Origin: Deltaproteobacteria bacterium IMCC39524
GTDB taxonomy: Bacteria > Desulfobacterota > Desulfuromonadia > Desulfuromonadales > BM103
DNA: 64,000 bases
Assembly (NCBI GenBank): GCA_029667085.1
Contig: JARUHJ010000001.1
Coordinates: 62,001-126,000 of the forward strand
Direction: 5' to 3'
Positions 5,475-34,545 of the stretch are shown here, in pieces. The notes under the pieces were generated by a model that was given only the letters and a program-made list of their open reading frames with translations, searched no databases and was not told the origin of the DNA. The stretch's first letter is position 1, and each line of letters begins with the position of its first letter. Position numbers and translations under genes: made by a program.

Positions 5475-5510
5475 AGGGCGCTACCTGGATATCAGGAGCG
5501 CCCTCTTTGT
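5475..5510. terminator. Bidirectional terminator between convergent genes
   Basis: GGGCGCT pairs with AGCGCCC with an inner CCTG/CAGG stem, preceded by an A run and followed by a T-rich run. It can serve both the HAD gene (+) and the minus-strand partner-switching operon. Confidence 0.8.
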
Positions 5511-5527
5511 TTGCTGTAAGGATACCT

Positions 5528-5950: not shown

Positions 5951-5995
5951 GGCTTTGGGCCTGGTTGAAGACAGAGTATGCTTCCTGGAGAAAGA

Positions 5996-6337: not shown

Positions 6338-6460
6338 TTCATACTCCTTGGCCGAAAAATTGGAAAGCTTACAAGTATAAGCAGTCCATGCAGATATATT
6401 ATCACATCACTCGATCTTTGAAGAAAATTCTCTTTAACACCGGTTCCTTATTCTCGTGGA

Positions 6461-9936: not shown

Positions 9937-10267
9937 GATGTCTGCTCACGGTTTGTCGCTGGCCCGTAAAAAGTTGCCTTTGGGTTACAGTCGTTAACGA
10001 TGATGTCGATAGCGATCATATTTAAAAACTGTTTCTTAAAGATGAAGCCCGCCCCTCTCATGCCTGCTGATTCAGAATAGTTTCGCTTGTACCAATTGTC
10101 TTATCTTAACCCTTTTTACAAGTAAATTCCAAGCTGCTATTGTACTAATTTTCTTAAAGATTATCAGAAGATATGAGCATGTAAAGGGTTCTTCGCCAGG
10201 CCGCCTATAGATTGACCATGTCCTGTCACTGTGCTACTTTCATTTAAGCTGATTACCTCTAACGGAA
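9937..10267. promoter_or_regulatory. Divergent intergenic region with a likely sigma-70 promoter
   Basis: This 330-base region separates the minus-strand partner-switching unit from the + strand TPR gene. For the TPR gene a promoter-like pair is seen: TTGACC at 10212-10217, a 17-base spacer, and TACTTT at 10235-10240. I see no gene or structured RNA in the rest. Confidence 0.42.
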
Positions 10268-11992
10268 ATGCATATGTACCCGGCCTGCCTCCATAAATAT
10301 ACTTTCCTGCTCCTGTTTTTGATTTGTGGATGCGTGGCTGCAGATGTTCACGGTGAAAATCAAACATCTAAGGATCAGGCTCCTTACGTCTCCCTCCTCA
10401 ATGAACCTCAGTCAAATGCCTATTTTTACTATTCTCGGGGCCGGATGCTGTTGGCCGAGGATGACTTTGAAGGTGCCGCCGCTGATTTTCTGAAAGCTGT
10501 CGATTTCGACCCTGACGATGAAGATCTGCGTTTTGAGCTCGCTGAGCTTTATCTCGCGATGAATCAACCCGAGGAAACGGTGCGCACGGTGGAGGATATC
10601 CTCCTGCGAAACCCTGATTCCGTCAGGGGCAACCTGACACTGGCAAATGCTTACTTCAGTAATCGGCAGCCTGCTGAAGCGATTCCTTACTTCCGTCGTG
10701 TCCTTGAGCTTGCTCCTGAAAAAGAACAGGTCCGTCTGCATCTGGCGATAGCACTGGTCCGTACCGGCTCTGTTGATCTCGCCTCTGCCGAGCTCAAAGA
10801 GATCCTCAAGCAAGACCCTGATTCCCTGCCTGCTCGCTTGGCTATGGCTCGTCTCTACCGTGAGATAGATTTAAACCAGTTGGCTGTAGAAGAGTATCTT
10901 GAGTTAATTCGTCGCAGCCCCGACGTCGACCAGGCCTACCTCGAGTTGGGACTTCTTTACGAAGAGCTTAAAGAGTGGCAGAAGGCGCTGGATGTATTCT
11001 CCGAGGTCCAGCAACAAAGACCTCTCGATTTTACCTTGCGTCATCATCTCTCAAGAGTCTACGTGGGAATGAATCGCTATGACGACGCCCTTGAAGAGCT
11101 CGCCATCATTGTCGAACTCAAGCCGGATGATTTTGATGCCCGTCGCAAGATTGGTCTTATCTACCTGGAGCAGCAGCGTTGGTCTGATGCGGTCGCCGTA
11201 TTCAGGGAGATGCTTGAGCTGAAGCCGGACCTTGAAACCGCTCGTTACTACCTGGGGACAGCTTATGAACGAGACTCCAAATGGGAGCTTGCCTTAGAGG
11301 CTTTTCTAGGCATTGAGAGTGGTTCTTCCTTTTACGATGATGCAATTTCTCACATCGGCTACATCTATCTTGAAACCAATCGTGTCGAAGAAGCTATCTC
11401 AACACTAGAGATGAGAATGGCTTCGGGAAGACCTCGCCCGCAACTCTTTAATTACCTTGCTTCTCTTTACATGGCTCAGGGACAGGGCGACCTCGCGTTG
11501 TCGACAGTAGGCAATGGCCTCGAATTGTATCCGGAAAATACCGACCTTCTTTATCAGAAAGCCTTGATTCTGGAACGGGCTGGCCGTCACCAGGAGGCGG
11601 CCCAGGAGATGAAGACTCTTCTCAGCTTTGATGACAAGCATGCAGAAGCCCTGAACTTTCTCGCTTATGATCTTGCTGTTAAGAATAAAAATCTTGATGA
11701 GGCTCTGCACTATGCTGAGCGGGCTATTGCTCTGAACCCCGCACCGCATATCATGGATACCCTTGGCTGGGTCTATTACCGCATGGGCCGCTTGATAGAG
11801 GCGCTCAAGATCATTGAGGAGGCCAGCCGCGAACTTTCAGAGGATGCTGTCATTTTCGAACATCTCGGAGAGATTCATCTGTCTTTAGGTAACCTCGAAC
11901 AGGCGCGCACTGCATTTGAGAGATCTCTGCAGTTGGCGCCGGATAACGATAAGCTTCGTGAAAAACTTGAAACTCTTGCTGACTCGCTGTGA
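10268..11992 (+). CDS. TPR-repeat outer-membrane lipoprotein
   Basis: A 574-residue protein with a lipoprotein signal (lipobox LICGC, about residues 15-20) followed by tandem tetratricopeptide repeats covering most of the length, for example AYFYYSRGRMLLAEDDFEGA and DTLGWVYYRMGRLIEALK. TPR arrays mediate protein contacts; a periplasm-facing lipidated TPR protein next to a LolB-like lipoprotein suggests a role at the outer membrane. ATGs at 10268 and 10274 are both possible starts. The downstream gene begins five bases after its stop. Confidence 0.85.
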   Translation: MHMYPACLHKYTFLLLFLICGCVAADVHGENQTSKDQAPYVSLLNEPQSNAYFYYSRGRMLLAEDDFEGAAADFLKAVDFDPDDEDLRFELAELYLAMNQPEETVRTVEDILLRNPDSVRGNLTLANAYFSNRQPAEAIPYFRRVLELAPEKEQVRLHLAIALVRTGSVDLASAELKEILKQDPDSLPARLAMARLYREIDLNQLAVEEYLELIRRSPDVDQAYLELGLLYEELKEWQKALDVFSEVQQQRPLDFTLRHHLSRVYVGMNRYDDALEELAIIVELKPDDFDARRKIGLIYLEQQRWSDAVAVFREMLELKPDLETARYYLGTAYERDSKWELALEAFLGIESGSSFYDDAISHIGYIYLETNRVEEAISTLEMRMASGRPRPQLFNYLASLYMAQGQGDLALSTVGNGLELYPENTDLLYQKALILERAGRHQEAAQEMKTLLSFDDKHAEALNFLAYDLAVKNKNLDEALHYAERAIALNPAPHIMDTLGWVYYRMGRLIEALKIIEEASRELSEDAVIFEHLGEIHLSLGNLEQARTAFERSLQLAPDNDKLREKLETLADSL

Positions 11993-11996
11993 CAGG

Positions 11997-12782
11997 TTGA
12001 TCTTGCCACGGCGTGTTTTGCTGCCTGCATTAACTCTTCTTGTCATCTTTCTGGCTTCCTGTGTCCCCTTGCGCCCTGAGCTCGGCCCGCCTGTCAGTCC
12101 TGACTTTGCTGATGCGCTCATGCAGAAATGGCGCGATAAGGCTCTCAGTATAAACTCCATTCAGGGCCTGGCAAAATTAAAGCTGGAAGCCCCTCTGAAT
12201 AACATCAGTGCAAACCAGGTTCTCCTGGTTGAGAGGCCGGATCGACTGCGGGCAGAGACTCTCAGCCCTTTTGGAGTGCCCCTGCTTCTTCTGGTCGCCG
12301 ATGGCGAAAAAATGGGTGCCTTGCTGCCGGCCCAAAACATTTACTATCAAGGGTCATCGAGCCCTGAGAATCTGGGCATGTTCGTAAACCTGCCTTTGGC
12401 GTTGTCTGATCTTGTCGGTGTTCTCTTGTATCAGCCCCAGATGATTGAATCCTGGAAAAAAGAAGCTTTCACACTCAAGACCGGCGGCTGGTTATTGATT
12501 CATAGCGGTACCTTAAAGCGGCAGGAATTTATTTTTAATGAAATGCAGGAGTTGATAGAGGTGTCATATTTCCAAGACAATAATCTGTTCCTGAAGGTTC
12601 AGTATGCAGAATTTTCTGAGTCGAAAAGCTCTTATCCGAAGCTGTTGACTCTGGAGATCCCTGAGAAATATGCAACGGTAAGCCTGGACTTTTCAGATGT
12701 AGAAACAAATGGTCAAATTCGCCCGGAGCTCTTTAAGGTCGCTCCCCCTGCAGGTGCACGTGTTGTGTATTTGCCCGATTGA
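11997..12782 (+). CDS. LolB/DUF4292-like lipoprotein
   Basis: Predicted outer-membrane lipoprotein of about 261 residues. I place the start at the TTG of 11997 because it gives a compact lipoprotein signal (ILPRRVLLPALTLLVIFLASC) immediately after the TPR gene's stop; a longer frame overlapping the TPR gene lacks support. The mature part shows the SINSIQGLAKLKLEAP and RPDRLRAETLSPFG segments typical of the DUF4292 / LolB-like fold, which binds lipids or lipoproteins. Pairing with the TPR lipoprotein suggests envelope assembly. Function is inferred. Confidence 0.78.
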   Translation: MILPRRVLLPALTLLVIFLASCVPLRPELGPPVSPDFADALMQKWRDKALSINSIQGLAKLKLEAPLNNISANQVLLVERPDRLRAETLSPFGVPLLLLVADGEKMGALLPAQNIYYQGSSSPENLGMFVNLPLALSDLVGVLLYQPQMIESWKKEAFTLKTGGWLLIHSGTLKRQEFIFNEMQELIEVSYFQDNNLFLKVQYAEFSESKSSYPKLLTLEIPEKYATVSLDFSDVETNGQIRPELFKVAPPAGARVVYLPD

Positions 12783-12823
12783 AGAAAGTTTTCTGAGCAG
12801 GATTCACGTCTAACTCCTAAGGG

Positions 12824-14443
12824 GTGTTTGTGAGATATCTACTTATTTTTATTCTGTTATTCATGACCGTTGCCTGTGAGCAGCAAGAAGCTGTCATTCC
12901 TGCAGAAGGTGAGGCGGCAAAGCCGACCCATGGCGACACCTTTATCGAGGCGTCTATTGGCGAACCAAATAATCTTCTGCCGGTGCTTGCCTCCGACTCC
13001 GCCTCAAGTGATATCAACGGCAAGGTCTACAACGGCCTGATTCGTTACGATAAAAACCTGCAGCTGGAAGGTGAATTGGCAGAATCCTGGGAGATTTCTG
13101 AAGACAAACTCTCCTTTACCTTCCATCTGCGTAAAGATGTTACCTGGCATGACGGCGCCCCTTTTACCAGTGCCGATGTCCTCTTTACTTACCAACTTTA
13201 TATCAACCCGGATGTGCCGACCTCCTATGCTGAAGACTTCCTGCAGGTTGCCAAGGCTGAAGCCCCCGATCCCTACACTTTTCGAGTGACTTACGAAAAA
13301 CCCTATGCTCCGGCTCTGGAAAGCTGGGGAACATCGATTCATCCCAAGCATCTGCTTGAAGGCGAAGAGATTACCAAGAGCCCTCTCTCACGTAGCCCGA
13401 TAGGCACCGGACCGTACAAGTTCGTCAAGTGGGATGCCGGAGAGAAGGTGGTGTTACTTGCCAACCCCGACTACTTTGAAGGCCAGCCCTATCTCCATCG
13501 TATCGTCTATCGTGTTATTCCTGATTCTTCGACCCAGTTCCTTGAATTACAATCCGGTGGCCTGGATTACATGGGGCTGACACCGATTCAGTACAGTACT
13601 CAGACCGACACTCCGGCGTTTAAACGCAAATTTAACAAATACCGTTACCTGTCTTTCAGTTACACTTATCTCGGCTATAATCTGACCAAACCGCTCTTTC
13701 AGGATAAGAGCGTTCGCCAGGCCATTTCCTACGCCATTAATAAACAGGAGTTGATAGACGGAGTCCTGCTGGGGCTCGGTCAGGCGGCAACAGGACCATA
13801 CAAGCCGGACACCTGGGTTTATAACGCCAAGGTCAAACGTTACGATTATAACCCGGAGTTGTCACGTTCCCTGTTTGCTGAGGCGGGTTGGGCTGACAGT
13901 GATGACGACGGTGTGCTGGACAAGGACGGTGAAAGGCTGGCCTTTACCATTGTCACCAACCAGGGCAATGATTTGCGTTCAAAAACCGCTGAAATCATTC
14001 AACGTCGCCTCAAAGAGGTTGGCGTCAGTGTCGAAATTCGCGTCGTCGAGTGGGCGACGTTCCTGAAGGAATTCATCTTCCCGGGGAACTTCGATGCCAC
14101 AATTCTCGGTTGGAGTGGCGGACCGGAGCCTGATCAGTATAATATCTGGCACTCAAGTAAAACAGCGCCGCGTGAGCTCAACTTCGTCAAGTTCAGTAAC
14201 CAGGAAGTTGATGAGTTGCTGGAGACGGGGAGAAGGACCTTCGATCAGGAAGAGCGTAAGCTAATCTACGATCGTTTCCAGGAGATTCTTGCTGAGGAGC
14301 AGCCTTATACTTTCCTCTATGTGGGCGAGGCTTTGCCGGCCGTTGCCAATCGGATCCGTGGTATAGAACCTTCTCCCGCGGGGATCAGCCATAACTTTAA
14401 TTATTGGTGGGTGCCCAAAAGCGAACAGAAGTATACTCGTTAG
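12824..14443 (+). CDS. Peptide/solute ABC transporter substrate-binding lipoprotein (family 5)
   Basis: Periplasmic binding protein of the DppA/OppA family, about 539 residues. The signal peptide ends in the lipobox TVAC. Family features include FTFHLRKDVTWHDGAPFTSADV, SPIGTGPYKFVKWDAGEKV and the VRQAISYAINKQELI segment. GTG codons at 12824 and 12830 are both possible starts; a TAAGGGG ribosome-binding site favours 12830. A DppB-type permease follows after a repeat-filled gap, but no second permease or ATPase is nearby. Ligand (di-/oligopeptide, nickel or other) cannot be read from sequence. Confidence 0.9.
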   Translation: MFVRYLLIFILLFMTVACEQQEAVIPAEGEAAKPTHGDTFIEASIGEPNNLLPVLASDSASSDINGKVYNGLIRYDKNLQLEGELAESWEISEDKLSFTFHLRKDVTWHDGAPFTSADVLFTYQLYINPDVPTSYAEDFLQVAKAEAPDPYTFRVTYEKPYAPALESWGTSIHPKHLLEGEEITKSPLSRSPIGTGPYKFVKWDAGEKVVLLANPDYFEGQPYLHRIVYRVIPDSSTQFLELQSGGLDYMGLTPIQYSTQTDTPAFKRKFNKYRYLSFSYTYLGYNLTKPLFQDKSVRQAISYAINKQELIDGVLLGLGQAATGPYKPDTWVYNAKVKRYDYNPELSRSLFAEAGWADSDDDGVLDKDGERLAFTIVTNQGNDLRSKTAEIIQRRLKEVGVSVEIRVVEWATFLKEFIFPGNFDATILGWSGGPEPDQYNIWHSSKTAPRELNFVKFSNQEVDELLETGRRTFDQEERKLIYDRFQEILAEEQPYTFLYVGEALPAVANRIRGIEPSPAGISHNFNYWWVPKSEQKYTR

Positions 14444-14449
14444 GGATAA

Positions 14450-14545
14450 ACATCGGCACGAGGAACGAGGTGCGAGGTATGCGAAAGTCAAAGGCTTCAG
14501 ATTCCCCTCGGACCTCGTCACGCGTACCTCTTACCAATTGTAGAA
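14450..14545. repeat. Degenerate inverted repeat (CGAGGT type)
   Basis: Left arm (about 14457-14484) is built from CGAGG-AACGAGGTGCGAGGT units; right arm (about 14509-14535) carries the reverse-complement CCTCGGACCTCGTCACGCGTACCTC. It fills the gap between the substrate-binding protein and permease genes. Confidence 0.6.
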
Positions 14546-14581
14546 TGTTTAATTTCAGTAGAAGAGAACAACTCTAAAGCC

Positions 14582-15556
14582 ATGCTCATTTATCTCACTA
14601 AAAGGTTGTTTATGATGATCCCCCTGCTGATCGGCATCACGCTGATCAGCTTCGTGGTCATCCATTTGGCGCCTGGCGAGCCGACTGACATGCAGACTGA
14701 TCTCAACCCTAAATCCAGTGTTGAGATGCGTGATCGGTTGCGAGAGCGTTATAACCTTGATAAGCCTCTTTATGTGCAATACGGCCTCTGGTTGAAGCAG
14801 GTCGCAACGCTCGACTTCGGTGAGTCTTTCGCCCAGGACCATCGTCCTGTGTTGGAGAAGGTCGGAGAGCGCATGCCGATCACCATCCTCATCAATGTTC
14901 TCTCAATAGCGGTCATCCTGGTGGTTGCGGTGCCGATAGGGATTCTCTCCGCCGTGCGTCGTAACAGCATGTTTGATCGCAGTACGACTGTGTTTGTTTT
15001 TCTCGGCTTCGCCATGCCTTCTTTCTGGCTGGCGCTGCTCCTCATGGATTACCTGGGAGTTCGGTTAGGGCTCTTTCCGGTCGCAGGGCTCAAATCGATC
15101 GGCTACGATTACATGAGCTCCGGCAGGCAGGTCTGGGACATGGCTCACCACCTGATCCTGCCTGTGTTTGTCTCGGCGTTCGGTGGCCTGGCCGGCTTCT
15201 CCCGTTATATGCGCTCCAACATGCTTGAAGTAATAAGACAGGATTACATTCTTACCGCCCGTGCCAAGGGTTTGTCGGAAAGAGTTGTCATCTACAAGCA
15301 TGCCTTGAGAAACGCCCTGTTGCCGGTCATTACAATCCTCGGTCTTTCCGTGCCAGGCCTGATCGGCGGTAGCGTTATCTTCGAAACCATCTTTGCCATC
15401 CCCGGCATGGGAAAGCTTTTCTACGATGGTGTCCTGATGCGTGATTACCCATTGATTATGGGCATCCTGGTGATTGGTGCCGTTCTTACCCTGATCGGTA
15501 ATTTGCTGGCGGATATCAGTTATGCTCTGGCTGACCCACGAATTCGCAAGGGCTGA
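14582..15556 (+). CDS. DppB-type peptide ABC transporter permease
   Basis: Inner-membrane permease, 324 residues, about six membrane segments. It shows the family N-terminus ([20 protein letters not shown]), the [13 protein letters not shown] periplasmic segment, and the EAA-loop region [28 protein letters not shown] that contacts the ATPase. It follows the substrate-binding protein but no DppC partner follows: the next + strand feature is a terminator. It must pair with components encoded elsewhere, or the operon has been cut down. Confidence 0.92.
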
Positions 15557-15561
15557 GCGAC

Positions 15562-15651
15562 TTAATTTTTCTTGCTGGAAGCCCGCAAGTATTTTTTGTT
15601 GGCAAAGGTAGCCAAAAAGGTAATGTATTGCGCAGGAACATAGTTCTTCAT
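15562..15651 (-). CDS. Candidate small protein, 29 residues
   Basis: On the minus strand an ATG at 15651 preceded by a near-perfect AGGAGGT ribosome-binding site opens a 29-codon frame (begins MKNYVPAQYITFLATFANKK, ends RASSKKN). It has an aromatic/hydrophobic middle and a basic tail, suggesting a membrane-surface peptide. It lies between the dppB stop and the dppB terminator, antisense to that tail. I know no family for it; the main support is the ribosome-binding site. Confidence 0.4.
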   Translation of the reverse strand: MKNYVPAQYITFLATFANKKYLRASSKKN

Positions 15652-15686
15652 GTGCTACCTCCTATAGCAAAACTCACAAACTCTTT

Positions 15687-15722
15687 GCCCCGCAGCTCAC
15701 TCCTGACTGTGGGGCTTTTTTT
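15687..15722 (+). terminator. Terminator downstream of dppB
   Basis: GCCCCGCAG pairs with CTGTGGGGC (nine pairs, one G-U) around an 11-base loop and is followed by seven T. Confidence 0.88.
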
Positions 15723-15744
15723 GCCCAATCTCTGTGGTTTTGAA

Positions 15745-17040
15745 TTATCTACCGCTAGATTCAGCTTGCAGCCTGCCTTGTTCTGTATCCACTCCGACAA
15801 GGAGCAGGATCCCAACAACAAAAAAGCCGGCCAAAGCGAGAATGGCGATTCGATTCGAGCCGGTCAACTCGATAAGAAGGGCAAAGGTGAGAGGGCCAAA
15901 AATAGAAGCAAACTTTGAACTGATTGCATAGAAGCCAAAGAATTCAGCGCTTCGAGCTTTAGGCACCATGCTTGAGAAAAGTGAACGGCTGAGAGCCTGG
16001 CTACCCCCAAGCACAATTGCAACAGCGAAGCCGAGAAGCCAGAATTCTGTAGCACTCTTCATAACTGAAGCGTAAACAGTGATCGCAGTAAAGAGCATGA
16101 GGCTGATCAGTATTGCCCGCTTGGTGTTCAAATGACTGGACAGACGTGAGAAGAGCAGAGCCCCGGGCATAGCGACAAACTGGATCATCAGAAAACAACC
16201 GAAAATCGTTCCTGTCCCTAAACCGAGTTCTTCACGGGCGAAGATGGCCGAGACAGCGATGATGGTCTGGATGCCGTCATTGTAAAGCAGGAAAGCGATC
16301 AGAAAACGGCCAAGATGTTTATACTGACGCAGATCGGCGAAGGTTCTCAGGTAATCACGTGGAGTGCGCAGCGCATGACGTGCGTGTGAAGTGACAGCTA
16401 CACTTTTCAACCAGCTGAAGGCGGGGAGGGCAAAAGCCAGCCACCAGACACCAGTGAGAAGAAAGCCCAACCGGGTCGCGCTGCCCTGGTCGGGTATGCC
16501 GAACCATGCATGCTTCTGGATCATCAGAAAGACGATCAGCAGCATCAAGCCGCCGCCGATGTAGCCGAGAGCAAAGCCGCGCGCGGAAAGTTGATCAGCT
16601 TCATGCCCGGTGGCCAGGTCAGGCAGGTAGGCGTTGTAAAAGATGTTGCCGGCTGCGAAGCCGATGTTGGCGAGGATGAAGAGACCCGCTGCGAGTAAAT
16701 ACTGCCCCGGGCCGGCAAAGAAGAGGCCACAGGTGGCAAGCGAGCCGAGCAGGCAGAAGATGATCAGCAGGCGTCTACGCCAGCCTCTCCGGTCGGCCAG
16801 ATTGCCCAGGCCGGGGGCAGAGATGGCAACAATCGCCATAGACAATGAGACGACATAACCCCAGAGGGCTGTTGCAGGAATCGGTTGAGAACTCCAGAAG
16901 AGATTTACCCCCCGGGCAGGGACGAGACTTGCAAAATAGACCGGCAGGACCGCGGCCAGAACGACTGTGGCAAATGCCGAGTTCGCCCAGTCGTAGAGAC
17001 ACCAGCCCAGTTTTGCTTTCTGTTCGCTATGTTGGCTCAA
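15745..17040 (-). CDS. Atg22/UMF1-like MFS transporter
   Basis: Major-facilitator protein of 431 residues with about 12 membrane segments. The N-terminal signature LGWCLYDWANSAFATVVLAAVLP and the LARNLADRRGWRRR-like loop after the second helix (here NLADRRGWRRRLL) match the Atg22 / UMF1 family, whose eukaryotic members export amino acids from the vacuole. The bacterial substrate is unknown. It is transcribed away from the DppB gene and is separated from the next minus-strand genes by a repeat. Confidence 0.88.
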   Translation of the reverse strand: MSQHSEQKAKLGWCLYDWANSAFATVVLAAVLPVYFASLVPARGVNLFWSSQPIPATALWGYVVSLSMAIVAISAPGLGNLADRRGWRRRLLIIFCLLGSLATCGLFFAGPGQYLLAAGLFILANIGFAAGNIFYNAYLPDLATGHEADQLSARGFALGYIGGGLMLLIVFLMIQKHAWFGIPDQGSATRLGFLLTGVWWLAFALPAFSWLKSVAVTSHARHALRTPRDYLRTFADLRQYKHLGRFLIAFLLYNDGIQTIIAVSAIFAREELGLGTGTIFGCFLMIQFVAMPGALLFSRLSSHLNTKRAILISLMLFTAITVYASVMKSATEFWLLGFAVAIVLGGSQALSRSLFSSMVPKARSAEFFGFYAISSKFASIFGPLTFALLIELTGSNRIAILALAGFFVVGILLLVGVDTEQGRLQAESSGR

Positions 17041-17089
17041 GCTGTTCCCTCTTGATATTTAAGGAAGGGACCTTTTATGGGAAAACTTG

Positions 17090-25696: not shown

Positions 25697-26166
25697 CTTT
25701 TCTGGTCGGCATTGTTTTGCTGGCTGTGCTGGTATCGACCCCGGCTCAGGCCTGCTTCGGCCCTAAACTTTTTGTCGGCGCCGGGTCAACGACTCAGCAG
25801 GAGCTCCTCTATGCCCTCGTCACCTTGTATGTTCAGGAAAAGACCGGTGTCGAAAGCACCCGTGTTGAAGTTGGTGTGAGCCAGAATCCGCTCGATCTAC
25901 TGTCTGCAGATAAAGTTGATCTGGTTTTTGTCCCTGTGAACGAGTCTGTAAATGAGACAGTCTTTCAACTCTCTGACCTGCCGCCATTGGTGGCCGGTTC
26001 TCGGCCCGTTAATGACCTGCAATTCACCACAGTGTTGCCAGCCGTGGCCAAGTTGAACAGGCTTCTCACCAAAGCCGATGTTGAGCTTCTGGTCCGTCAG
26101 GTCGAGGCCGGGAACAGTGCTATGTCTGTTGCCCGTAAATTCCTCATGAAAAATCGATGGATATGA
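25678..26166 (+). CDS. Periplasmic substrate-binding-like protein (short)
   Basis: A 162-residue exported protein (signal about residues 1-25, ending AQACF). KLFVGAGSTTQQELLYALVT and the later VDLVFVPVNESVN recall one lobe of a glycine-betaine / osmoprotectant (OpuAC) or related type-II binding protein, but it is only about half the usual length. It overlaps the polyferredoxin gene upstream and the beta-helix gene downstream, so it is part of one translation unit. Ligand unknown. Confidence 0.65.
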   Translation: MALRQITFLVGIVLLAVLVSTPAQACFGPKLFVGAGSTTQQELLYALVTLYVQEKTGVESTRVEVGVSQNPLDLLSADKVDLVFVPVNESVNETVFQLSDLPPLVAGSRPVNDLQFTTVLPAVAKLNRLLTKADVELLVRQVEAGNSAMSVARKFLMKNRWI

Positions 26167-26972
26167 CACTAAGTATCTATAAAATAAATAGAACTATAGT
26201 TGCTTTGTGCCTCACAGGATTCGTTTTAACCTCAATGGTGCAGGCCGATGATCTGGTGCCTGAATATTCTGGTGCTTATGCGCAAGATCTCGTTTGGGAG
26301 AACGCTGTCACCATGTCAGGTGATGTCCTGATCCTGAAGGGGGGATCCTTGACGATTCGCCCCGGCACGCAGGTTAACGTGCTCCCGGCAGAAGGGACGA
26401 AAATTGATCCGGAATATCTTTCTTCGCAAACGGAGCTGCTTGTGCGCGGCAAGCTGGAAATCCTGGGAACGGATGATGCTCCGGTGCGCTTTGTCTTGAT
26501 TGAACGAAACGATTTGGAGGAGATTGCCTGGTCAGGAATTACACTGGACAGCGCAGCACAAAGTCGTATTCTGCACACCGAACTGGAGCGCGCCGATATT
26601 GCTATCCGTGTCGTCGCTTCTTCCCCGGAGATCAAAAGCAACAAAATCACTCGATGCCGCTATGGCATCGTGATGCAACAGCAGAGTCATCCTAAAATTC
26701 TTGATAACCTGCTATCTGACGGGGAAGGTGGCATCTTCTGCTGGAAAGGCTCCAACCCTTTCCTGTCGGGCAATACGATTCAAGATCACGATGAAGAAGC
26801 GATTTTTGTTGATATCGACAGCCGACCCCGGTTTGACCGTAATTTTGTCAGCGGCAACGCGATCGGGCTTGCACTTTACCCACGCGACCTGCCTTTAGAC
26901 TCGGTTTCCGTCACTGACAATGTCGAGAATATCCGGTTTTTGGGCCGCCAGGGGGAGGGCGTCGTCGAATGA
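26157..26972 (+). CDS. NosD-like right-handed beta-helix protein 1
   Basis: A 271-residue exported protein (signal about residues 1-31, ending VQADD). The mature part has parallel beta-helix rungs with Asn/Ile ladders such as EIKSNKITRCRYGIVMQQQS and LSGNTIQDHDEEAIFV, as in NosD / periplasmic copper-binding and carbohydrate-binding families. It overlaps the upstream gene by ten bases and the second beta-helix gene by four. Two adjacent beta-helix proteins suggest a duplicated scaffold. Exact function unknown. Confidence 0.78.
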   Translation: MDMTLSIYKINRTIVALCLTGFVLTSMVQADDLVPEYSGAYAQDLVWENAVTMSGDVLILKGGSLTIRPGTQVNVLPAEGTKIDPEYLSSQTELLVRGKLEILGTDDAPVRFVLIERNDLEEIAWSGITLDSAAQSRILHTELERADIAIRVVASSPEIKSNKITRCRYGIVMQQQSHPKILDNLLSDGEGGIFCWKGSNPFLSGNTIQDHDEEAIFVDIDSRPRFDRNFVSGNAIGLALYPRDLPLDSVSVTDNVENIRFLGRQGEGVVE

Positions 26973-28072
26973 TCCAGCGGCAATGTCTCGTTTTGATCAT
27001 AATCTCACTGCTTCTGCCTTTTTCGGTCTTAGCCGGTGATGCAAAGGTCTACCGAGGAGATCAGACACTTTTTGAAGATACCGTTTGGGACGGTGAGATC
27101 CTGATAGACGGAATATTGACTGTCCCTGCCGATACGACGCTGGAAATTCGCCCGGGAAGCCGGATCCGTTTCACCCGTTTTGACAGTAACGGTGATGGCA
27201 TCGGCGAGCATGAAATTTTTTCTCAGGGCACGATAAGGGTTCAGGGTACAGAGTCCGCGCCTGTTCTTTTCACTTCAGCTGAAGCCAACCCCCGTCCGGG
27301 AGACTGGGGTGCGATAAACATGATGGTGAGTGAGGCAGAGAACCTTTTGGAATTCTGCAATGTCGAATACGGTTACCGGGGATTTCACGCGCATTTTGCA
27401 AAAGCGCGCTTGCTCAACAGTCATTTTATAAAGAATGTTCGTGGTGCACAATTCCAGGAATCTCAGGTATTTATCGAACATTGTCGCTTCCAGGACAACC
27501 TTAACGGGGTGCAGTTCAGAGACAGTGTCGTCACTTTGCGAAACTCGGTTATCTCAGGGAGTCACTGGGGCTTGCGTTGCGTCTACAGTGAACTGGAGAT
27601 GACCTCCTGCGTGATTGAAAATAACCTGGTTAATGGTGCGAATATCAGAGACAGCAAGCTAAATATCAGCAGTAATCGGATCACCGGAAATCGTCGAGGG
27701 CTTTACTTGCAGAGAAGTAAAGGGCAGGTGGTTGGCAATGATCTTTCTGCCAACAGCGAGCATGGCATTTTTCTTGAAGACTCAGATGTTGAAGTCGCTG
27801 AAAACCGTCTTGTTGAGAATGGTCGAGCTGGTGTTCGCTGGTTGAACAGCGAAGGACGCCTGGCACGCAACCAGATCTCTGAAAACGGTGTCTATGCGCT
27901 TATAAATGATGGCTCTACCAACGTTGTTGCCCGTAATAACTGGTGGGGCTCTGCTGCTAAAAAAGTTATTGCGGCAGCGGTGCGTGATGGCTCGGATCGG
28001 CCGGGAATGGGGATGGTTGATAGCCGTTATCCATTGCTGAAACCGTTAATGCAGAGCCGCAAAGTGCAATAA
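26969..28072 (+). CDS. NosD-like right-handed beta-helix protein 2
   Basis: A 367-residue exported protein (signal about residues 1-22, ending SVLAGD). Its opening VYRGDQTLFEDTVWDGEILI parallels VWENAVTMSGDVLILKG of the preceding protein, and both keep an LEIRPGSRI / LTIRPGTQV strand, so the two are paralogues. The beta-helix continues with SSNRITGNRRGLYLQRSKGQ and similar rungs, ending in an ARNNWWGS motif typical of such helices. No catalytic residues recognised. Confidence 0.8.
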   Translation: MIQRQCLVLIIISLLLPFSVLAGDAKVYRGDQTLFEDTVWDGEILIDGILTVPADTTLEIRPGSRIRFTRFDSNGDGIGEHEIFSQGTIRVQGTESAPVLFTSAEANPRPGDWGAINMMVSEAENLLEFCNVEYGYRGFHAHFAKARLLNSHFIKNVRGAQFQESQVFIEHCRFQDNLNGVQFRDSVVTLRNSVISGSHWGLRCVYSELEMTSCVIENNLVNGANIRDSKLNISSNRITGNRRGLYLQRSKGQVVGNDLSANSEHGIFLEDSDVEVAENRLVENGRAGVRWLNSEGRLARNQISENGVYALINDGSTNVVARNNWWGSAAKKVIAAAVRDGSDRPGMGMVDSRYPLLKPLMQSRKVQ

Positions 28073-28200: not shown

Positions 28201-28240
28201 TATGAACTCTGATTTTGAAAAATTGTTAATTGGAGAATCA

Positions 28241-29134
28241 ATGAAACGTTTCATTCTTATATTACTCTTCCTCGCCGTTGCTCTTACCGGCTGCGAGCAA
28301 CCTCTGGAAGGGCCACCGATCCGCATCGGCTATATGAACTGCAATAGCGAAGCGGAGACCATGAAACGTTTCCGCCCTTTAACAGCCTACTTGTCGCAAC
28401 GGTTGGGACGGCCCTTCGAGGCGGTTCCGGTTGATACACAGGATTTTGAGTCGCGTTTTGCTGCCGGTGACTTTGCCTTCACTCACGGCAACAGCCTTCT
28501 CTATATCATCATGCGTGAGAATCATGGCCTGAAGTTGCTCGCGACAGAGAAGCGTGGTCAGTTCGGTTCCCGCACCGCCGGATCCATCATCGTCAAGAAA
28601 GACAGCCCGATAAAAACCTTGGCCGATCTGCAAGGTAAGCGGATGCTGTTTGGCCCGCAATTGGCTCCGACCGGTTATTTGGCCCAGTACGACCTGATGT
28701 TGCAAGCCGGTTTCGATCCTGAGGTGGGGCTTGATTACTATGCTATCCCACACGGTGCCTATAAGCATGAAAAGGTCATCTACGGTGTTTATTTCGGTGA
28801 ATATGATGTTGCCGCTGCGCCAACTCTTGACCTTGAGCTTATGACTCGCGAGGGGCGTATCTCTGCCGATGATTTCCGTATTCTGGCCCAGAGCGAGATT
28901 ATCCCTTACTGCACTTTTGGTGCGTCGAAAGATGTCGACGCCGAGTTGGCGGAGAAGTTTCGCAAAGTATTGGTCGAACTGACCCCGGAAACAACGGTCG
29001 AAATCGATGGCGAGACGATCAAGGTCCTTGATTCAGCGTGGGTGGACGGTTTCGAGACGTTACTAGACCAGGATTACGATCCGATCCGGGATATGGCGAG
29101 ACGCGTTAATATGCCTCCTTACCAGGAATTCTGA
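28241..29134 (+). CDS. PhnD/transferrin-fold substrate-binding lipoprotein
   Basis: A 297-residue lipoprotein (lipobox LTGC). The ATG at 28241 follows TGGAGAA. The fold is that of phosphate/phosphite/phosphonate-binding PhnD-like proteins: IRIGYMNCNSEAETMKRFRP, ADLQGKRMLFGPQLAPTGYL and VAAAPTLDLELM. Family members bind oxyanions or small organic ligands, or act as the sensing half of signalling proteins. No PhnC/PhnE transporter is adjacent; the next genes are a membrane TPR-like protein and YedE, so an oxyanion such as selenite or sulfite is possible but speculative. Confidence 0.82.
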   Translation: MKRFILILLFLAVALTGCEQPLEGPPIRIGYMNCNSEAETMKRFRPLTAYLSQRLGRPFEAVPVDTQDFESRFAAGDFAFTHGNSLLYIIMRENHGLKLLATEKRGQFGSRTAGSIIVKKDSPIKTLADLQGKRMLFGPQLAPTGYLAQYDLMLQAGFDPEVGLDYYAIPHGAYKHEKVIYGVYFGEYDVAAAPTLDLELMTREGRISADDFRILAQSEIIPYCTFGASKDVDAELAEKFRKVLVELTPETTVEIDGETIKVLDSAWVDGFETLLDQDYDPIRDMARRVNMPPYQEF

Positions 29135-29135
29135 A

Positions 29136-29681
29136 ATGATGCTGCGTGATCGATTCGACCAACTGCTGATCGTTGCCCTGGTGGGCGTGCTGATCTTTAC
29201 TGCTGTGCTGATGGCAGGCGCTGGACCACGTGATGACAATCAGGATGCCCAGGCAGCCAATCGCAGGTTCGAACGCGAGATGCTGCATCAGGCACGAGTG
29301 GCCTTTATTGAACGGCACTATTCTCCTGTGATCACGTTACGGGATAATGGTTCCTTGCCGGATGCTTTGCTTAAACTGGAAGAGTTAAGTCGAACCTTGC
29401 CGGGTGAAGCCCACAATGATCTGCTCAGTGGGGATATCCTGCTGCGTATGGGACAGTTTGATCGTGCCGTAAGCAAACTGGCCAAAGCCGTTAGAAGCAA
29501 AGCTGATTATGTCGATTCCGCCAGCCCTTTGAGCGAGAGGCCGTTGATTGAATCGGCTGTCTCGGAAGGCTTGCCGCTGATTCGCGACCGCCTGCGTGTT
29601 CAGCCAGACAATCTCACTCTTGCAAAGGTCTTGAAAGACGGCTACTACCTGCAGAGCCGTCTCGCCGGAGGCTGTGAATGA
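29136..29681 (+). CDS. Membrane-anchored TPR-like protein
   Basis: A 181-residue protein with one N-terminal membrane segment (LIVALVGVLIFTAVLMAG) and a periplasmic helical part with TPR-like helices (LPDALLKLEELSRTLPGEAH, LLRMGQFDRAVSKLAKAV). It begins one base after the binding-protein stop and overlaps yedE by four bases, so it is translated together with both. No named family recognised; its place suggests it links the binding protein with YedE. Confidence 0.7.
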   Translation: MMLRDRFDQLLIVALVGVLIFTAVLMAGAGPRDDNQDAQAANRRFEREMLHQARVAFIERHYSPVITLRDNGSLPDALLKLEELSRTLPGEAHNDLLSGDILLRMGQFDRAVSKLAKAVRSKADYVDSASPLSERPLIESAVSEGLPLIRDRLRVQPDNLTLAKVLKDGYYLQSRLAGGCE

Positions 29682-30748
29682 GTCTCTCGCTGCGTGATCG
29701 ACATTTATGGGTTGTTCTGGCTGCAGGTGCTGGCCTTGGTGTCCTCGGTGCCCTGCTTTCTGTTTGGGGCAATCCCCAGAACAGCGGCATCTGTGTCTCC
29801 TGCTTCATTGAAAACACCTCCGGTGCACTAGGTTTACATGATAATGAACGCATGCAGTATCTGCGTCCGGAGTTGATCGGTTTCGTCCTCGGCTCGATTC
29901 TTTGTGCGTCCTTGTTTCGCGAGTTTCGCTCGCGTGGTGGCAGCGCACCCTTGGCCAGACTGGTCTCGGGTGTTTTCCTGATCGTCGGCAGCGCGGTCTT
30001 TATCGGCTGTCCGATCAAGTTGTTCCTCAGGCTGATGGCGGGGGATATCTCTTCTCTGGCAGGGCTGTTTGGTTTGATCGCAGGAGTCTGGATCGGCTTG
30101 CAGGGTTTGGCTCGTGGCGTCGACCTGGGACGTGCTGAAGATGAGCGTGGTGCGACCGGACTGCTGGTTCCTGCAGGATTCATCCTGTTACTGGTCTTCC
30201 TGCTGGCGCGGCCATCATTTCTGCTCTTCTCGGATCGTGGTAGTGCTGCACAGCACGCTCCTCTGTTTATATCGCTGGCGGTCGGTTTGCTGCTTGGAGT
30301 TCTTGCTCAACGCAGCCGCTTCTGTGTCACCGGCAGCGTTCGCGATGGCCTTTTAATGGGCACTCGCAGTCCACTTCTCTGGGGCTTCTTCGCCTTCCTG
30401 ATCGGTGCCTTTGTCACCAATATCTTTATGGGCCGCTTTACTTTCGGCCTGTACGGTCAGCCGGGGGCGCACCTTGAGTACCTCTGGAGCTTTCTGGGGA
30501 TGTTGTTGGTCGGTTGGCTCTCGGTTCTGATCGGTGGCTGCCCATTCCGGCAGTTAATCAAAGCCGGTGAGGGTGACGCCGATGCCGGTCTTGCCGTCGT
30601 TGGTATGCTGCTCGGCGGTGGACTTGTTCAGTCCTGGGGGGTTGCGGCAACGGCCGCCGGAGTGGCGACCTCAGGGAAGATTTCGGTGCTGGTTGGATTG
30701 GCTTTTGTATTGTTGATCAGTTTGCTGTTTCGTGACCGAACTGTTTGA
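29678..30748 (+). CDS. yedE: Selenium-metabolism membrane protein YedE/FdhT
   Basis: A 356-residue inner-membrane protein with about ten membrane segments, YeeE/YedE family. It keeps the N-terminal WGNPQNSGICVSCFIENTSG segment and the internal AQRSRFCVTGSVRD segment with the Cys residues that members use for sulfur/selenium passage. This longer YedE branch co-occurs with selenium-using organisms and is proposed to act in selenium trafficking. It is read in one unit with the binding protein and TPR-like gene upstream and precedes the GeoRSP cassette. Confidence 0.82.
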   Translation: MSLSLRDRHLWVVLAAGAGLGVLGALLSVWGNPQNSGICVSCFIENTSGALGLHDNERMQYLRPELIGFVLGSILCASLFREFRSRGGSAPLARLVSGVFLIVGSAVFIGCPIKLFLRLMAGDISSLAGLFGLIAGVWIGLQGLARGVDLGRAEDERGATGLLVPAGFILLLVFLLARPSFLLFSDRGSAAQHAPLFISLAVGLLLGVLAQRSRFCVTGSVRDGLLMGTRSPLLWGFFAFLIGAFVTNIFMGRFTFGLYGQPGAHLEYLWSFLGMLLVGWLSVLIGGCPFRQLIKAGEGDADAGLAVVGMLLGGGLVQSWGVAATAAGVATSGKISVLVGLAFVLLISLLFRDRTV

Positions 30749-30858: not shown

Positions 30859-31173
30859 GTGAATAAACCTCTAAGAAACCCCGATATTGTCTGGCGTGTT
30901 GAAAAGCGTCGTCAGGCAGAAGTTATGAAGGCTCTCGAGAATGGTGAGGATGCTGACGACAGCGGTACGGTGATCCTGTTGCTTTCCGGCATGATGCATC
31001 AACTGAACCTGGTTGGTGGCCTGATCTGGCAACAGTGTGACGGTGCACAGACGTTGTCTGGGATCGCTGAACAACTTGCCATGGAGTTTTCCGTGGAAAC
31101 AGCTGAAGTAGAAGCTGATGTTGCCGAGTTTGTCGCCGATCTGGCGGAGAGAGGTTGGTTGATCAATGGCTGA
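30859..31173 (+). CDS. GeoRSP system PqqD-like peptide chaperone
   Basis: A 104-residue protein of the PqqD / RiPP-recognition-element fold (winged helix), which binds the leader of a precursor peptide and presents it to a radical SAM enzyme. The pattern LLLSGMMHQLNLVGGLIWQQ then CDGAQTLSGIAEQLAMEF, VEADVAEFVADLAERGWL is that of PqqD. The GTG start follows AAAGGATAA. Its stop overlaps the radical SAM gene by eight bases. The set PqqD - radical SAM/SPASM - SPASM protein is the one named GeoRSP in Geobacter relatives. Confidence 0.85.
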   Translation: MNKPLRNPDIVWRVEKRRQAEVMKALENGEDADDSGTVILLLSGMMHQLNLVGGLIWQQCDGAQTLSGIAEQLAMEFSVETAEVEADVAEFVADLAERGWLING

Positions 31174-32167
31174 AGTCACAGAAATGTTCTCTGCACCCTT
31201 GACGTTTAACTGGACGCTTTCCTATCGCTGCAACTTTACCTGTGAGCATTGTTATAGTCGTGATGAACAATGTCCGGAATTGGCAACAGCAGATGTAAAG
31301 CGAATTATTGATATTCTGGTGGAGCAGCAGGTGCCATTTATCAACTTTGGCGGCGGTGAGCCACTGATGCGTAAAGACCTGTTTGACGTGGCTGAATACG
31401 CTTCGAAGCAGGGTTTGAATGTTTCCATGAACACCAACGGCTGGATGCTCGATGAATCAGCCGCTCAACGGCTTAAGGACGTCGGTTTTAAGAGTGTCGG
31501 CATCAGTATCGACAGCGCATTCGCCGACATTCACGACAACTTCCGCAATAGGCCCGGCTCTTTCGAGAGGGCCGTGTCAGGTCTGGATGCCCTTGCCAAT
31601 GTTGGCCTGAAGAGCACTATGAGTTCGGTCATCTCCCGGATTAATTATCAGTCCTTTATGGATTTACTCGATCTGGCACGCAGTCACAAGGTCGGACAGG
31701 TTTATCTGCATAACTTCAAATGTAGTGGCCGGGGATTTAAAAATCGTGAGGATCTGGACCTCACTCCCGACGAGTGGCAGGCGTTCTACTTGCAGGCCCT
31801 TTCGGTGAAGAACCAGACAAAGGATTTGAAAATCTCCTTTGATGACCCGGTGATCGCATCGCTGCCTGAATACCAGGAAAAAACTATGGTTAAGGGGAGT
31901 AGCTGCGGCAAGCTTTCCCTGCATCTGCAACCCAATGGCGATATTACCCCCTGTGGATTTATCCCTGTCGTTGTCGGTAATATTCTCAAGGACGATTTTG
32001 AGACGATCTGGTTCGATTCACCGGTTCTCAAGGCGATGCGCTCCAAGGAAGCCACCGGCAAGTGCTCAGGATGCGGCGCCTTTGAAGACTGTCAGGGCGG
32101 TTGCACAGCGCGTGCTTTTGCGACCACCGGTGATTTTAACCAGCCTGATCCGCATTGTTGGAAGTAA
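31166..32167 (+). CDS. GeoRSP system radical SAM/SPASM enzyme
   Basis: Radical SAM enzyme of 333 residues. The [4Fe-4S] SAM motif is C22-x3-C26-x2-C29 (RCNFTCEHCY), followed by FINFGGGEPLMRKDL for SAM binding. The C-terminal SPASM domain has cysteines for auxiliary clusters: SSCGKL, ITPCGF, KCSGCGAFEDCQGGCTARA and PHCWK. SPASM enzymes of this layout modify ribosomally made peptides (thioether, C-C or other bonds). The product here is unknown. A short peptide gene follows after an inverted repeat. Confidence 0.92.
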   Translation: MAEVTEMFSAPLTFNWTLSYRCNFTCEHCYSRDEQCPELATADVKRIIDILVEQQVPFINFGGGEPLMRKDLFDVAEYASKQGLNVSMNTNGWMLDESAAQRLKDVGFKSVGISIDSAFADIHDNFRNRPGSFERAVSGLDALANVGLKSTMSSVISRINYQSFMDLLDLARSHKVGQVYLHNFKCSGRGFKNREDLDLTPDEWQAFYLQALSVKNQTKDLKISFDDPVIASLPEYQEKTMVKGSSCGKLSLHLQPNGDITPCGFIPVVVGNILKDDFETIWFDSPVLKAMRSKEATGKCSGCGAFEDCQGGCTARAFATTGDFNQPDPHCWK

Positions 32168-32312
32168 CGCCTGCGGCGCGTAGCACGTGGCGAGACGCGA
32201 GAAAAATAAAAAGAAGGGACAAGACTAATGAGTCGTCATGAGCCCTGACTGGTTTTAATTGAATAAGAAGTTTTTCCGCGCTACGCACCACGTGCCACGC
32301 GCCACTTTTTAA
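32168..32312. repeat. Degenerate inverted repeat (GCGCGTAGCACGTGGC type)
   Basis: Left arm (about 32170-32215) carries GGCGCGTAGCACGTGGCGAG then AAAAATAAAAAG; right arm (about 32270-32311) is its imperfect reverse complement (CGCTACGCACCACGTGCCAC, GCGCCACTTTTT). The central part is about 55 bases. It lies between the radical SAM gene and the short peptide gene and would form a large hairpin in the transcript. Confidence 0.7.
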
Positions 32313-32328
32313 AGAAAGGAGAGTCGTC

Positions 32329-32385
32329 ATGAAAAAGTACTTTAAGCCTCGTGTTGTCGCTTCAAGTAACGTTCACCCTTGCTGA
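32329..32385 (+). CDS. Candidate GeoRSP precursor peptide (18 residues, or selenopeptide by UGA readthrough)
   Basis: ATG at 32329 follows an excellent AAAGGAGAG ribosome-binding site and encodes MKKYFKPRVVASSNVHPC before UGA at 32383-32385. The K-Y-x-K-P followed by hydrophobic residues is like the leader of PqqA and other PqqD-recognised precursors, and the Cys/His end could be the modified core. It sits between the radical SAM and SPASM genes, where a precursor is expected. If the UGA were read as selenocysteine, the product would be 37 residues, ending at the TGA of 32440-32442 inside the next gene's start. I know of no described precursor for this system, so the role is inference. Confidence 0.6.
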   Translation: MKKYFKPRVVASSNVHPC

Positions 32386-32389
32386 ATCC

Positions 32390-32409
32390 TCGTCGCTGTC
32401 AGGCGACGA
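32390..32409 (+). promoter_or_regulatory. Stem-loop just after the peptide's UGA, SECIS-like
   Basis: TCGTCGC (32390-32396) pairs perfectly with GCGACGA (32403-32409); the loop is TGTCAG, or GUCA if a U-G pair closes it. It begins four bases after the UGA. A loop G next to U is as in bacterial SECIS elements, but the stem is closer to the UGA than the usual bacterial model allows. No T run follows, so it is not a terminator. It may instead shape translation of the downstream gene. Confidence 0.5.
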
Positions 32410-32431
32410 ACTCTAGAGAGGATAGTTTGTT

Positions 32432-33379
32432 ATGGGCGTTGACCTGTTAGATACCCCGGTTCGTCTGACCTGGGATTTTCCTGATGATGCGACCGGGCAG
32501 CAAGGCACGAGTTTGACTGCTGTTGCTGAGGCAGTCATGGACGCCGGCGTTTTCTTTGTCCTTTTGCAGGGACGCCCGCTCCTGCATCCGTCTCTGGAGG
32601 AAGTTCTCGAGATCCTCGGTGGTGGCTGTCAGCTCATCTTGACCTGCTGCGGCAGCCAAGATGAGCTCACTCGTCTTGCTCGGCTTTCACCTGCAGGTGT
32701 GCAGGTCCTCCTGAATATCACCTCCTTTGCCCGAGACGAAAGCAAAGTCGACTTAAAGCGTCTGCTCCAAGTTGTCCTGGAGTTGCGCGAGATCGGTCAC
32801 GAGCCTCACATTGCGTTCACTCCGTTACGTGGAAATCTGAATAATATTCCCGCTCTTCTGAGCTTTTGTGTCGAGCATGAAATTCCTAGGTTTAAGTTGT
32901 CAAACGCGCATATCGGTGATAGCTTCCATGATTATTCGGCAGAACAACTGCCCCGCTGGCAGGACCTTGAAGCCTTTCGAGAGACTTGGAAAAACTTCAT
33001 CGAAAGTGGGGGCTCTCTTCCGGAGATGGAGATACATGATCTTTTCCTTTGGGAGATCATGACCCCCGGACAGAAGCAGAATCGCGCAGAGTATGGTGGT
33101 TGCCAGGCTGGCAACAGCCTCAGTCATGTTGACTGCCATGGCGTTGTTCATCCCTGTGCAGCCTGGCCGCAACCACTTGGCTGTCTGCCAGGGCAATCGC
33201 TCGAGGAAATCTGGAATAGCTCTGAGCGTTTTGCCGTGTGCGAAGCGATCGCGCAAAGTCCCGAAGGATGTCATGGCTGCTCAGATCTTGATATCTGCTT
33301 CGGTGGCTGTCGCGGTCTTGCCAGAAACCTGAACCGTTCCGCAGGAGAGCGCGACCTTATGTGCTCAGGCCCGCGTTAA
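32432..33379 (+). CDS. GeoRSP system SPASM-domain protein (no radical SAM cysteine motif)
   Basis: A 315-residue protein with a radical-SAM-like barrel that lacks the CxxxCxxC motif: the equivalent start reads PVRLTWDFPDDATGQ. The C-terminal SPASM part is complete (YGGCQAGNSLSHVDCHGVVHPC, CHGCSDLDICFGGCRG). Thus it should bind auxiliary Fe-S clusters but not cleave SAM, and probably partners the active enzyme at 31166. An AGAGAGGA ribosome-binding site precedes the ATG at 32432. The start lies 46 bases after the short peptide's UGA. Confidence 0.85.
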   Translation: MGVDLLDTPVRLTWDFPDDATGQQGTSLTAVAEAVMDAGVFFVLLQGRPLLHPSLEEVLEILGGGCQLILTCCGSQDELTRLARLSPAGVQVLLNITSFARDESKVDLKRLLQVVLELREIGHEPHIAFTPLRGNLNNIPALLSFCVEHEIPRFKLSNAHIGDSFHDYSAEQLPRWQDLEAFRETWKNFIESGGSLPEMEIHDLFLWEIMTPGQKQNRAEYGGCQAGNSLSHVDCHGVVHPCAAWPQPLGCLPGQSLEEIWNSSERFAVCEAIAQSPEGCHGCSDLDICFGGCRGLARNLNRSAGERDLMCSGPR

Positions 33380-33396: not shown

Positions 33397-34545
33397 ATGT
33401 CAATCTACCTCGACAACGCTGCAACCTCTTTTCCCAAGCCATCCCAGGTGATTGAAGCTGTCGAGCGGACTTTACGCGAGAATTCTGCCAATCCGGGACG
33501 GGGGGGGCACCATATGTCCCTTGATGCCGGTCGTATGGTCATGGAATGCCGGGAAAGCCTGGCTCGTTTTTTTGGTATCACGGATGCGTCACGCATCGCT
33601 TTCACTGCCAACGCCACCGAGGCCATCAACCTCGGCCTTTTCGGCGCTCTTAGTTCCGGTGACAGGGTTGTCACCACGTCGATGGAACACAACGCAGTCG
33701 TTCGGCCGCTTCAGGCATTGAACGACCAGGGCGTAGATGTGGTTCGCGTTGCTGCCGACGCGCTTGGCCAGGTTAACCCCTTGGCTATTCGCGAGGCATG
33801 TGTTCCTGGTACCCGTCTCGTCATCATGACGCATTGCTCCAATGTGAGCGGCACACTTCAGGCAATCGAAGACGTTGGCCCCTGGTGTCGCGAGCAAGGT
33901 ATCCTTTTTATGGTTGATGCGGCGCAGAGCGCAGGTGTGTTTCCGATCAATGTCGAAAAGATGGCGATCGACCTGCTTGCCGTTCCCGGGCATAAGTCCC
34001 TGCTTGGACCAACGGGAACCGGTTTCCTCTATGTCCGCAAAGGTCTGGACTTGAAGCCGCTGCTCTACGGTGGAACGGGCAACTTCTCACAATCAGCAAT
34101 CCAGCCAACCGAGATGCCGGAAAGACTCGAAAGTGGCACTTTGAATACGATCGGTCTGGCAGGGCTCAAGGCCGGGGTCGAGTTTCTGGAAAAGCTTGGC
34201 CTGGATCTTGTTCGTGCTCACGAGCAGGAAATGCTGCGTCAGTTGATCGAGGGCTTGCAGGAGATTGACCAAGTCATCCTCTACGGCCCCCTCGGTTCAG
34301 CGCGTCATGGCGGGGCGCTTTCCTTTAACGTTAAAAATGTCGATCCGTCAATGCTGGGCTTCCGCTTGGACCGCGAATATGGTATCTGTTGTCGTGTCGG
34401 GTTACACTGTGCTCCGGAAGCTCATGGCAGTATCGGAACTCTCCCTGAAGGCACCGTGCGTCTCAGTCCGGGATATTTTAATACGGCTGATGATATCAAT
34501 CAGACCCTTACAGCGATTCGGACAATCGTCGCGACAGAGAACTGA
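33397..34545 (+). CDS. EF2568-type cysteine desulfurase / selenocysteine-lyase-like enzyme
   Basis: Class-V PLP aminotransferase fold, 382 residues. The PLP lysine is Lys200 in LAVPGHKSLLGPTG, and the catalytic Cys338 lies in RVGLHCAPEAH. The sequence matches the desulfurase group named after Enterococcus EF2568, which sits next to selD and selenium-dependent hydroxylase genes, so it may mobilise selenium or sulfur. The ATG at 33397 is used because the conserved IYLDNAATSFPKP start follows it directly. It lies 17 bases after the SPASM-only gene. Confidence 0.85.
   Translation: MSIYLDNAATSFPKPSQVIEAVERTLRENSANPGRGGHHMSLDAGRMVMECRESLARFFGITDASRIAFTANATEAINLGLFGALSSGDRVVTTSMEHNAVVRPLQALNDQGVDVVRVAADALGQVNPLAIREACVPGTRLVIMTHCSNVSGTLQAIEDVGPWCREQGILFMVDAAQSAGVFPINVEKMAIDLLAVPGHKSLLGPTGTGFLYVRKGLDLKPLLYGGTGNFSQSAIQPTEMPERLESGTLNTIGLAGLKAGVEFLEKLGLDLVRAHEQEMLRQLIEGLQEIDQVILYGPLGSARHGGALSFNVKNVDPSMLGFRLDREYGICCRVGLHCAPEAHGSIGTLPEGTVRLSPGYFNTADDINQTLTAIRTIVATEN

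Follow-up and report, generated by a model that had tools for sequence, protein, structure and literature searches.

The 18-residue open reading frame that starts at position 32329 of the window (the whole stretch of 64,000 nucleotides analysed here) is a real gene that had been overlooked. Very probably it encodes one precursor of the GeoRSP radical SAM system, which would act in trans on several such peptides, with products that would serve exported cytochromes and other surface proteins. The evidence of sequence argues strongly for the precursor assignment, as the preliminary description had proposed: conservation, coding constraint and co-occurrence with the maturase all point to the missing GeoRSP substrate. 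Beyond this assignment, we infer a modification chemistry and a role at cytochromes. GeoRSP has so far been an orphan, with three recognised enzyme families and no listed substrate; a substrate family is now concrete, and because its members have only 17-20 residues, direct synthesis and assay are possible. What appears to be new is the extent: the dispersed precursors of an orphan radical SAM system form a family that spans phyla and is linked to giant extracellular cytochromes.

The peptide gene lies between the TIGR04303 radical SAM gene (31166-32167) and the SPASM-only gene (32432-33379), in the following surroundings:

26157..28072, + strand: two NosD-like right-handed beta-helix proteins, a family recurrent in GeoRSP loci (called by sequence resemblance; a relative in locus L329 matches PF13229/PF05048)
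28202..29134, + strand: PhnD-like substrate-binding protein, conserved in GeoRSP loci
29136..29681, + strand: small TPR-like protein, conserved in GeoRSP loci
29678..30748, + strand: YedE-family selenium/sulfur-type transporter (TIGR04112, 414 bits)
30859..31173, + strand: PqqD-family peptide-recognition protein, GeoRSP type (TIGR04302, 88.3 bits, cut-off 100; PF05402)
31166..32167, + strand: GeoRSP radical SAM/SPASM maturase with CNFTCEHC (TIGR04303, 439.8 bits, cut-off 400)
32315..32323, + strand: Shine-Dalgarno sequence AAAGGAGAG, its GGAG 7 nt ahead of ATG 32329
32329..32385, + strand: 18-codon candidate precursor peptide gene, conserved in position, frame and sequence (pN/pS 0.15)
32390..32409, + strand: perfect 7-bp hairpin TCGTCGC-TGTCAG-GCGACGA just 3' of the peptide stop, without a T-run
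32432..33379, + strand: SPASM-only partner (best-matching family TIGR04304, 112.6 bits, cut-off 300)
33397..34545, + strand: cysteine desulfurase family protein (TIGR01977), adjoining GeoRSP only in the window's order

Translation from ATG 32329 gives MKKYFKPRVVASSNVHPC, with the leader motif YxxPxVV and the core SSNVHPC; the last codons are TGC TGA, the stop occupying 32383-32385. A frame of 18 codons, its ATG behind a good ribosome-binding site, between the radical SAM and SPASM genes, had been reported in the preliminary description and is confirmed by AAAGGAGAG and MKKYFKPRVVASSNVHPC; the PqqD-like gene that it placed two genes upstream is located at 30859-31173. Purine-rich sites precede nearly all relatives of the peptide gene. 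Between the radical SAM and peptide genes, the window also holds a 32-nt inverted repeat (32175-32206 and 32272-32303, 78%), and similar GC-rich repeats are seen in gaps of the same genus.

Within the window's order, an 18-codon reading frame with an HPC end occupies the same gap in 42 clusters, where the usual peptide is MKKYxKPRVVGSSNVHPC with a strong ribosome-binding site upstream. These frames comprise 39 distinct DNA sequences and 21 distinct peptides, and end in TGA (27), TAA (12) or TAG (3). For these 39 sequences the pN/pS ratio is 0.15 (pN 0.103, pS 0.678), whereas column shuffles average 0.89 and never fall below 0.38, and differences at third codon positions are about five times those at first or second positions. 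Thus, the short frame that had been expected in the corresponding gap of relatives was recovered there, and comparison of synonymous with non-synonymous change, likewise suggested beforehand, revealed strong constraint. In six clusters of the order the peptide is absent from this gap, and copies are found elsewhere in the same genomes.

The peptide gene is multi-copy, dispersed and linked to cytochromes, which extends beyond what the preliminary description had considered. A degenerate DNA pattern matches 80 of 277 genomes of the class, with up to six copies in each, while the reversed pattern used as a control has 0 matches in the same 277 genomes. Across 187 distinct gene copies, the peptides of 17-20 residues follow the consensus Y-x-x-P-x-[VI]-V-G-[ST]-x-x-V-H-P-C, in which P at -12 (187/187), Y at -15 (185/186) and G at -8 (181/187) are conserved, the VHPC tail and [VI] at -10 show little or no variation, and HPC forms the C-terminal end of every copy. 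The motif first noted as K-Y-x-K-P, for its resemblance to PqqD-type leaders, is better written as Y-x-x-P-x-[VI], given that K precedes P in only 168 of 187 copies. Each genome has one maturase compared with one to six dispersed peptide genes, the median being three in 29 near-complete genomes of the window's order. The three copies in the genome of the window (the window copy, G000:C4:210148 and G000:C9:9412) have only 30-35 of 48 bases in common, yet encode nearly identical peptides.

Over all family copies the stop codon is TGA in 109, TAA in 68 and TAG in 10. A terminator-like hairpin, in many cases with a T-run, lies 3' of 139 of 184 copies (3-5 in shuffles), and the peptide is thus usually the last gene of its transcription unit. 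For the window copy, no terminator was called at the 32390..32409 hairpin, and the RNA fold after the stop is not significant (z -0.23). In a scan of 84,980 genomes, the matches listed include Desulfuromonadales, Geobacter-like bacteria, Deferrisomatales and Nitrospirota; a plasmid search gave no match. One metagenome-assembled genome labelled Phycisphaerae (L181) carries the peptide paired with an HD-domain gene and lacks the GeoRSP enzyme, and this pair in a Planctomycete assembly looks like a contaminating Desulfuromonadales contig. Scans of the peptide against NCBIfam (release 20) and Pfam returned no family matches; the family is previously unlisted, and the earlier statement that no precursor had been described agrees with the families in both collections.

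The peptide family is almost entirely confined to genomes that also encode GeoRSP enzymes, in Desulfuromonadia, other Desulfobacterota and Nitrospirota. Among the 277 genomes of the class, the radical SAM family matches in 83 and the peptide in 80; both occur in 69, the enzyme alone in 14, the peptide alone in 11 and neither in 183 (Fisher p about 7e-39, the co-occurrence p-values ignoring phylogeny). When the pattern is loosened slightly, a somewhat divergent copy turns up in 12 of these 14 genomes with the enzyme alone, compared with one doubtful match in 14 enzyme-free controls, and in two genomes with the enzyme (G182 and G226) no peptide was found at one mismatch. Fragments of the radical SAM enzyme are present in five of the 11 peptide-only genomes; one genome that is 97% complete (G239), with the peptide and no clear GeoRSP enzyme, is a real exception. 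In the rest of the phylum Desulfobacterota the enzyme occurs in 12 of 15 peptide genomes, and three of the four apparent cases of enzyme without peptide have a variant peptide directly behind the enzyme gene. Outside the class, mostly in Nitrospirota, the enzyme is found in 17 of 20 peptide genomes.

The contiguous order of PqqD, radical SAM and SPASM genes (window 30859-33379) is kept in relatives. Of the three proteins, the radical SAM protein alone scores above the curated GeoRSP cut-off for its family, while the PqqD-like and SPASM proteins fall below theirs, which indicates a divergent GeoRSP branch; TIGR04302 is nonetheless the best-matching family for the PqqD-like protein, whose solved relatives are PqqD (3g2b) and the lasso peptide recognition elements (RREs) TbiB1 (5v1u) and TfuB1 (6jx3). 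The radical SAM/SPASM maturase has PqqE, SuiB and SkfB as solved relatives and is similar to PqqE, to MftC and to radical SAM families that modify heme. An AlphaFold2 model of the SPASM-only protein (pLDDT 87) matches SuiB, PqqE and anSME best in the PDB, and a SuiB/PqqE-like radical SAM fold is predicted. The CxxxCxxC motif is absent from this protein and its relatives; the protein is therefore probably a non-catalytic partner (pseudoenzyme).

Among the neighbouring genes, that of the YedE-family transporter is present in 47 of 57 GeoRSP loci and conserved across phyla. GeoRSP loci across phyla also include a ResB-like (cytochrome c biogenesis) gene, an ArsP/SaoE-type permease, NosD-like proteins and substrate-binding proteins. 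The ResB-like and permease genes were noted in Geobacterales and Nitrospirota loci (4388-5302 and 5409-7307 in L329; also L318), and neither was observed as a GeoRSP neighbour in the window's order. In the Geobacterales GeoRSP loci searched, no peptide was found beside the enzyme; these genomes carry their copies at other sites.

Dispersed copies often lie directly behind large genes on the same strand that encode multiheme cytochromes, FG-GAP proteins, F5/8-C-domain proteins and Fn3-like proteins. The upstream multiheme cytochromes reach 2,846 amino acids and 75 CxxCH motifs, and in the fetched loci proteins with at least four CxxCH motifs make up 20 of 34 adjacent upstream genes compared with 20 of 481 other genes (p 2e-16). 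Many of these cytochromes share a C-terminal module, CSKCHxPHASxLPxLMITNCLD...NCH...WNxVTPW. Ends of the form WNx[VK..][TS]PW number 100 in 53 genomes of the class, and the GeoRSP enzyme is present, whole or as a fragment, in 51 of the 53 genomes with WNxVTPW-type ends, the remaining two being incomplete assemblies. The peptide lies at most 400 nt downstream of 29 of 42 distinct cytochrome ends, in loci partly chosen for the peptide. The module, for example in L122, L139, L152 and L248, shows TNCLD, then tens of residues, then NCH, with conservation reaching to WNxVTPW; the TNCLD...NCH segment resembles a heme site that is split or has a single Cys.

The genome of the window encodes two cytochromes of about 3,850 and 3,900 amino acids with a slightly extended C-terminal module, yet neither of its two extra peptide copies comes after a cytochrome: one lies behind an FG-GAP protein and the other behind an HD-domain protein. 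These giant cytochromes (about 3,850 and 3,904 amino acids, one with 54 CxxCH motifs) were noted in L411 (G000:C4:213000-232900; 5496-17046, minus strand) and L412/L413. A cytoplasmic HD-domain (HDIG) protein recurs upstream of one paralogue in six loci, as an exception to the rule of exported partners, and an exported protein of 345-353 amino acids recurs downstream of the FG-GAP and peptide pair in three. In seven loci, large Fn3-like proteins upstream of Geobacterales copies have a short Cys-bearing tail (GTCP, GTCQ or NVCR), which may be another kind of C-terminus in partner proteins.

Discrete lasso-type RREs bind a [Y/W]xxPx[L/V/I/F/A] leader motif, and in the LPP system the YxxP motif is essential for binding (PMC13381572); PqqD has been grouped with RREs that bind W/Y/LxxP (PMC12710340). 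Nearly all copies of the peptide carry Y-x-x-P-x-[VI] in the N-terminal half, and the RRE of the window is homologous to PqqD, TbiB1 and TfuB1. By analogy, the PqqD-like protein would bind this N-terminal half and, to judge from homology, deliver the peptide to the radical SAM maturase acting in trans. The radical SAM/SPASM enzyme, together with the SPASM-only pseudoenzyme, would then modify the SxxVHPC core; the most plausible site is the invariant Cys/His at the C-terminus, which would undergo thioether cross-linking or oxidation. The product may work with the neighbouring exported redox partner, for example at the cytochrome module TNCLD...NCH...WNxVTPW, in the maturation, export or electron-transfer function of that partner.

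Other readings of the peptide have to be set against that of a trans-acting precursor. It is rather unlikely that the peptide is consumed, as in the PQQ and mycofactocin pathways, with one small redox cofactor arising from the VHPC end and additional copies only raising supply. The C-terminal core is nearly invariant, unlike the variable cores of antibiotics, and the enzyme is akin to PqqE, MftC and heme-modifying radical SAM families, both of which would suit such a route; however, a single cofactor would not need scattered copies paired with particular exported proteins, and no dedicated peptidase was seen beside the cluster in the loci examined. The proposal that the peptide is an unmodified small protein, which forms a subunit of the neighbouring exported proteins or regulates them while the GeoRSP enzymes act elsewhere, draws on the tight gene adjacency with exported proteins and on the putative status of the modification. 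This appears improbable, as the peptide distribution tracks GeoRSP, 42 clusters have a copy within the GeoRSP operon itself, and YxxPx[VI] is a known recognition motif.

The TGA directly after the last Cys codon, with a hairpin right behind and a selenium-type transporter upstream, recalls the SbtM system, in which the precursors contain TGA and an insertion element lies downstream. Here, TGA would encode selenocysteine as in SbtA/SbtM, the hairpin would be the insertion element and YedE would supply selenium. In relatives, the codon that follows this last Cys is TGA, TAA or TAG, and this variation in stops leads us to reject selenocysteine read-through, whose probability is negligible; the hairpin, moreover, is a terminator-like element in most copies. 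A chance reading frame or a non-coding conserved element might be suspected for 18 codons, a length that gene finders would skip. This, too, has practically no probability left, being refuted by coding constraint (pN/pS 0.15, with varied third positions and stops), by paralogues at multiple loci and by the absence of any match to the reversed pattern.

Under the preferred reading, a peptide gene in the operon of its modifying enzymes in 42 clusters is what is expected of a RiPP precursor. The layout of many loci with one maturase, together with the near-exclusive link to the cytochrome module, suggests that metal-reducing bacteria and Nitrospirota use a modified peptide in the assembly of their extracellular electron conduits. 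A more specific version is put forward tentatively, with the balance somewhat against it: GeoRSP may be a peptide-maturation system dedicated to giant extracellular multiheme cytochromes, in which each modified VHPC peptide would serve the C-terminal module TNCLD...NCH...WNxVTPW, as well as certain FG-GAP or Fn3-like surface proteins, as a cap, anchor, sorting partner, or ligand of metal or heme. If so, a RiPP would be a working part of extracellular electron transfer. In the literature searched, no description of a link between a GeoRSP peptide and cytochromes was found, no paper combines PqqD and SPASM with Geobacter and cytochromes, GeoRSP as a term occurs only in an unrelated context, and NVHPC occurs only in unrelated text.

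Among known systems, the lasso and LPP leaders (TfuB1, TbiB1, LppB) share the YxxPx[L/V/I] leader motif and a homologous recognition protein, whereas the present system has radical SAM chemistry and a nearly invariant core of seven residues, with neither lasso cyclase nor leader protease seen. The SbtA/SbtM thio(seleno)oxazole peptides likewise involve a radical SAM/SPASM enzyme, a Cys codon before TGA and a selenium-type neighbouring gene; in contrast, there is no selenocysteine here, and the SbtM family matches the SPASM protein of the window weakly. Mycofactocin (MftA/B/C) also combines a short precursor with conserved C-terminal residues, an RRE protein and a related radical SAM enzyme (1e-58). 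Other mycofactocin genes were not seen in GeoRSP loci, and the VHPC C-terminus differs from the decarboxylated, cross-linked Val-Tyr end of MftA. PQQ biosynthesis (PqqA, PqqD, PqqE) is similar in its PqqD-type chaperone and radical SAM/SPASM enzyme, PqqE being a close solved relative. Unlike PqqA, however, the peptide is without the cross-linked Glu...Tyr pair, no Glu being among the common residues of any column, and there are several dispersed precursors and a pseudoenzyme partner. Finally, the GeoRSP families (TIGR04302 PqqD family, TIGR04303 radical SAM/SPASM and TIGR04304 SPASM) occur here in the same three-gene order, to which the window's order adds a cysteine desulfurase and a putative in-operon precursor.
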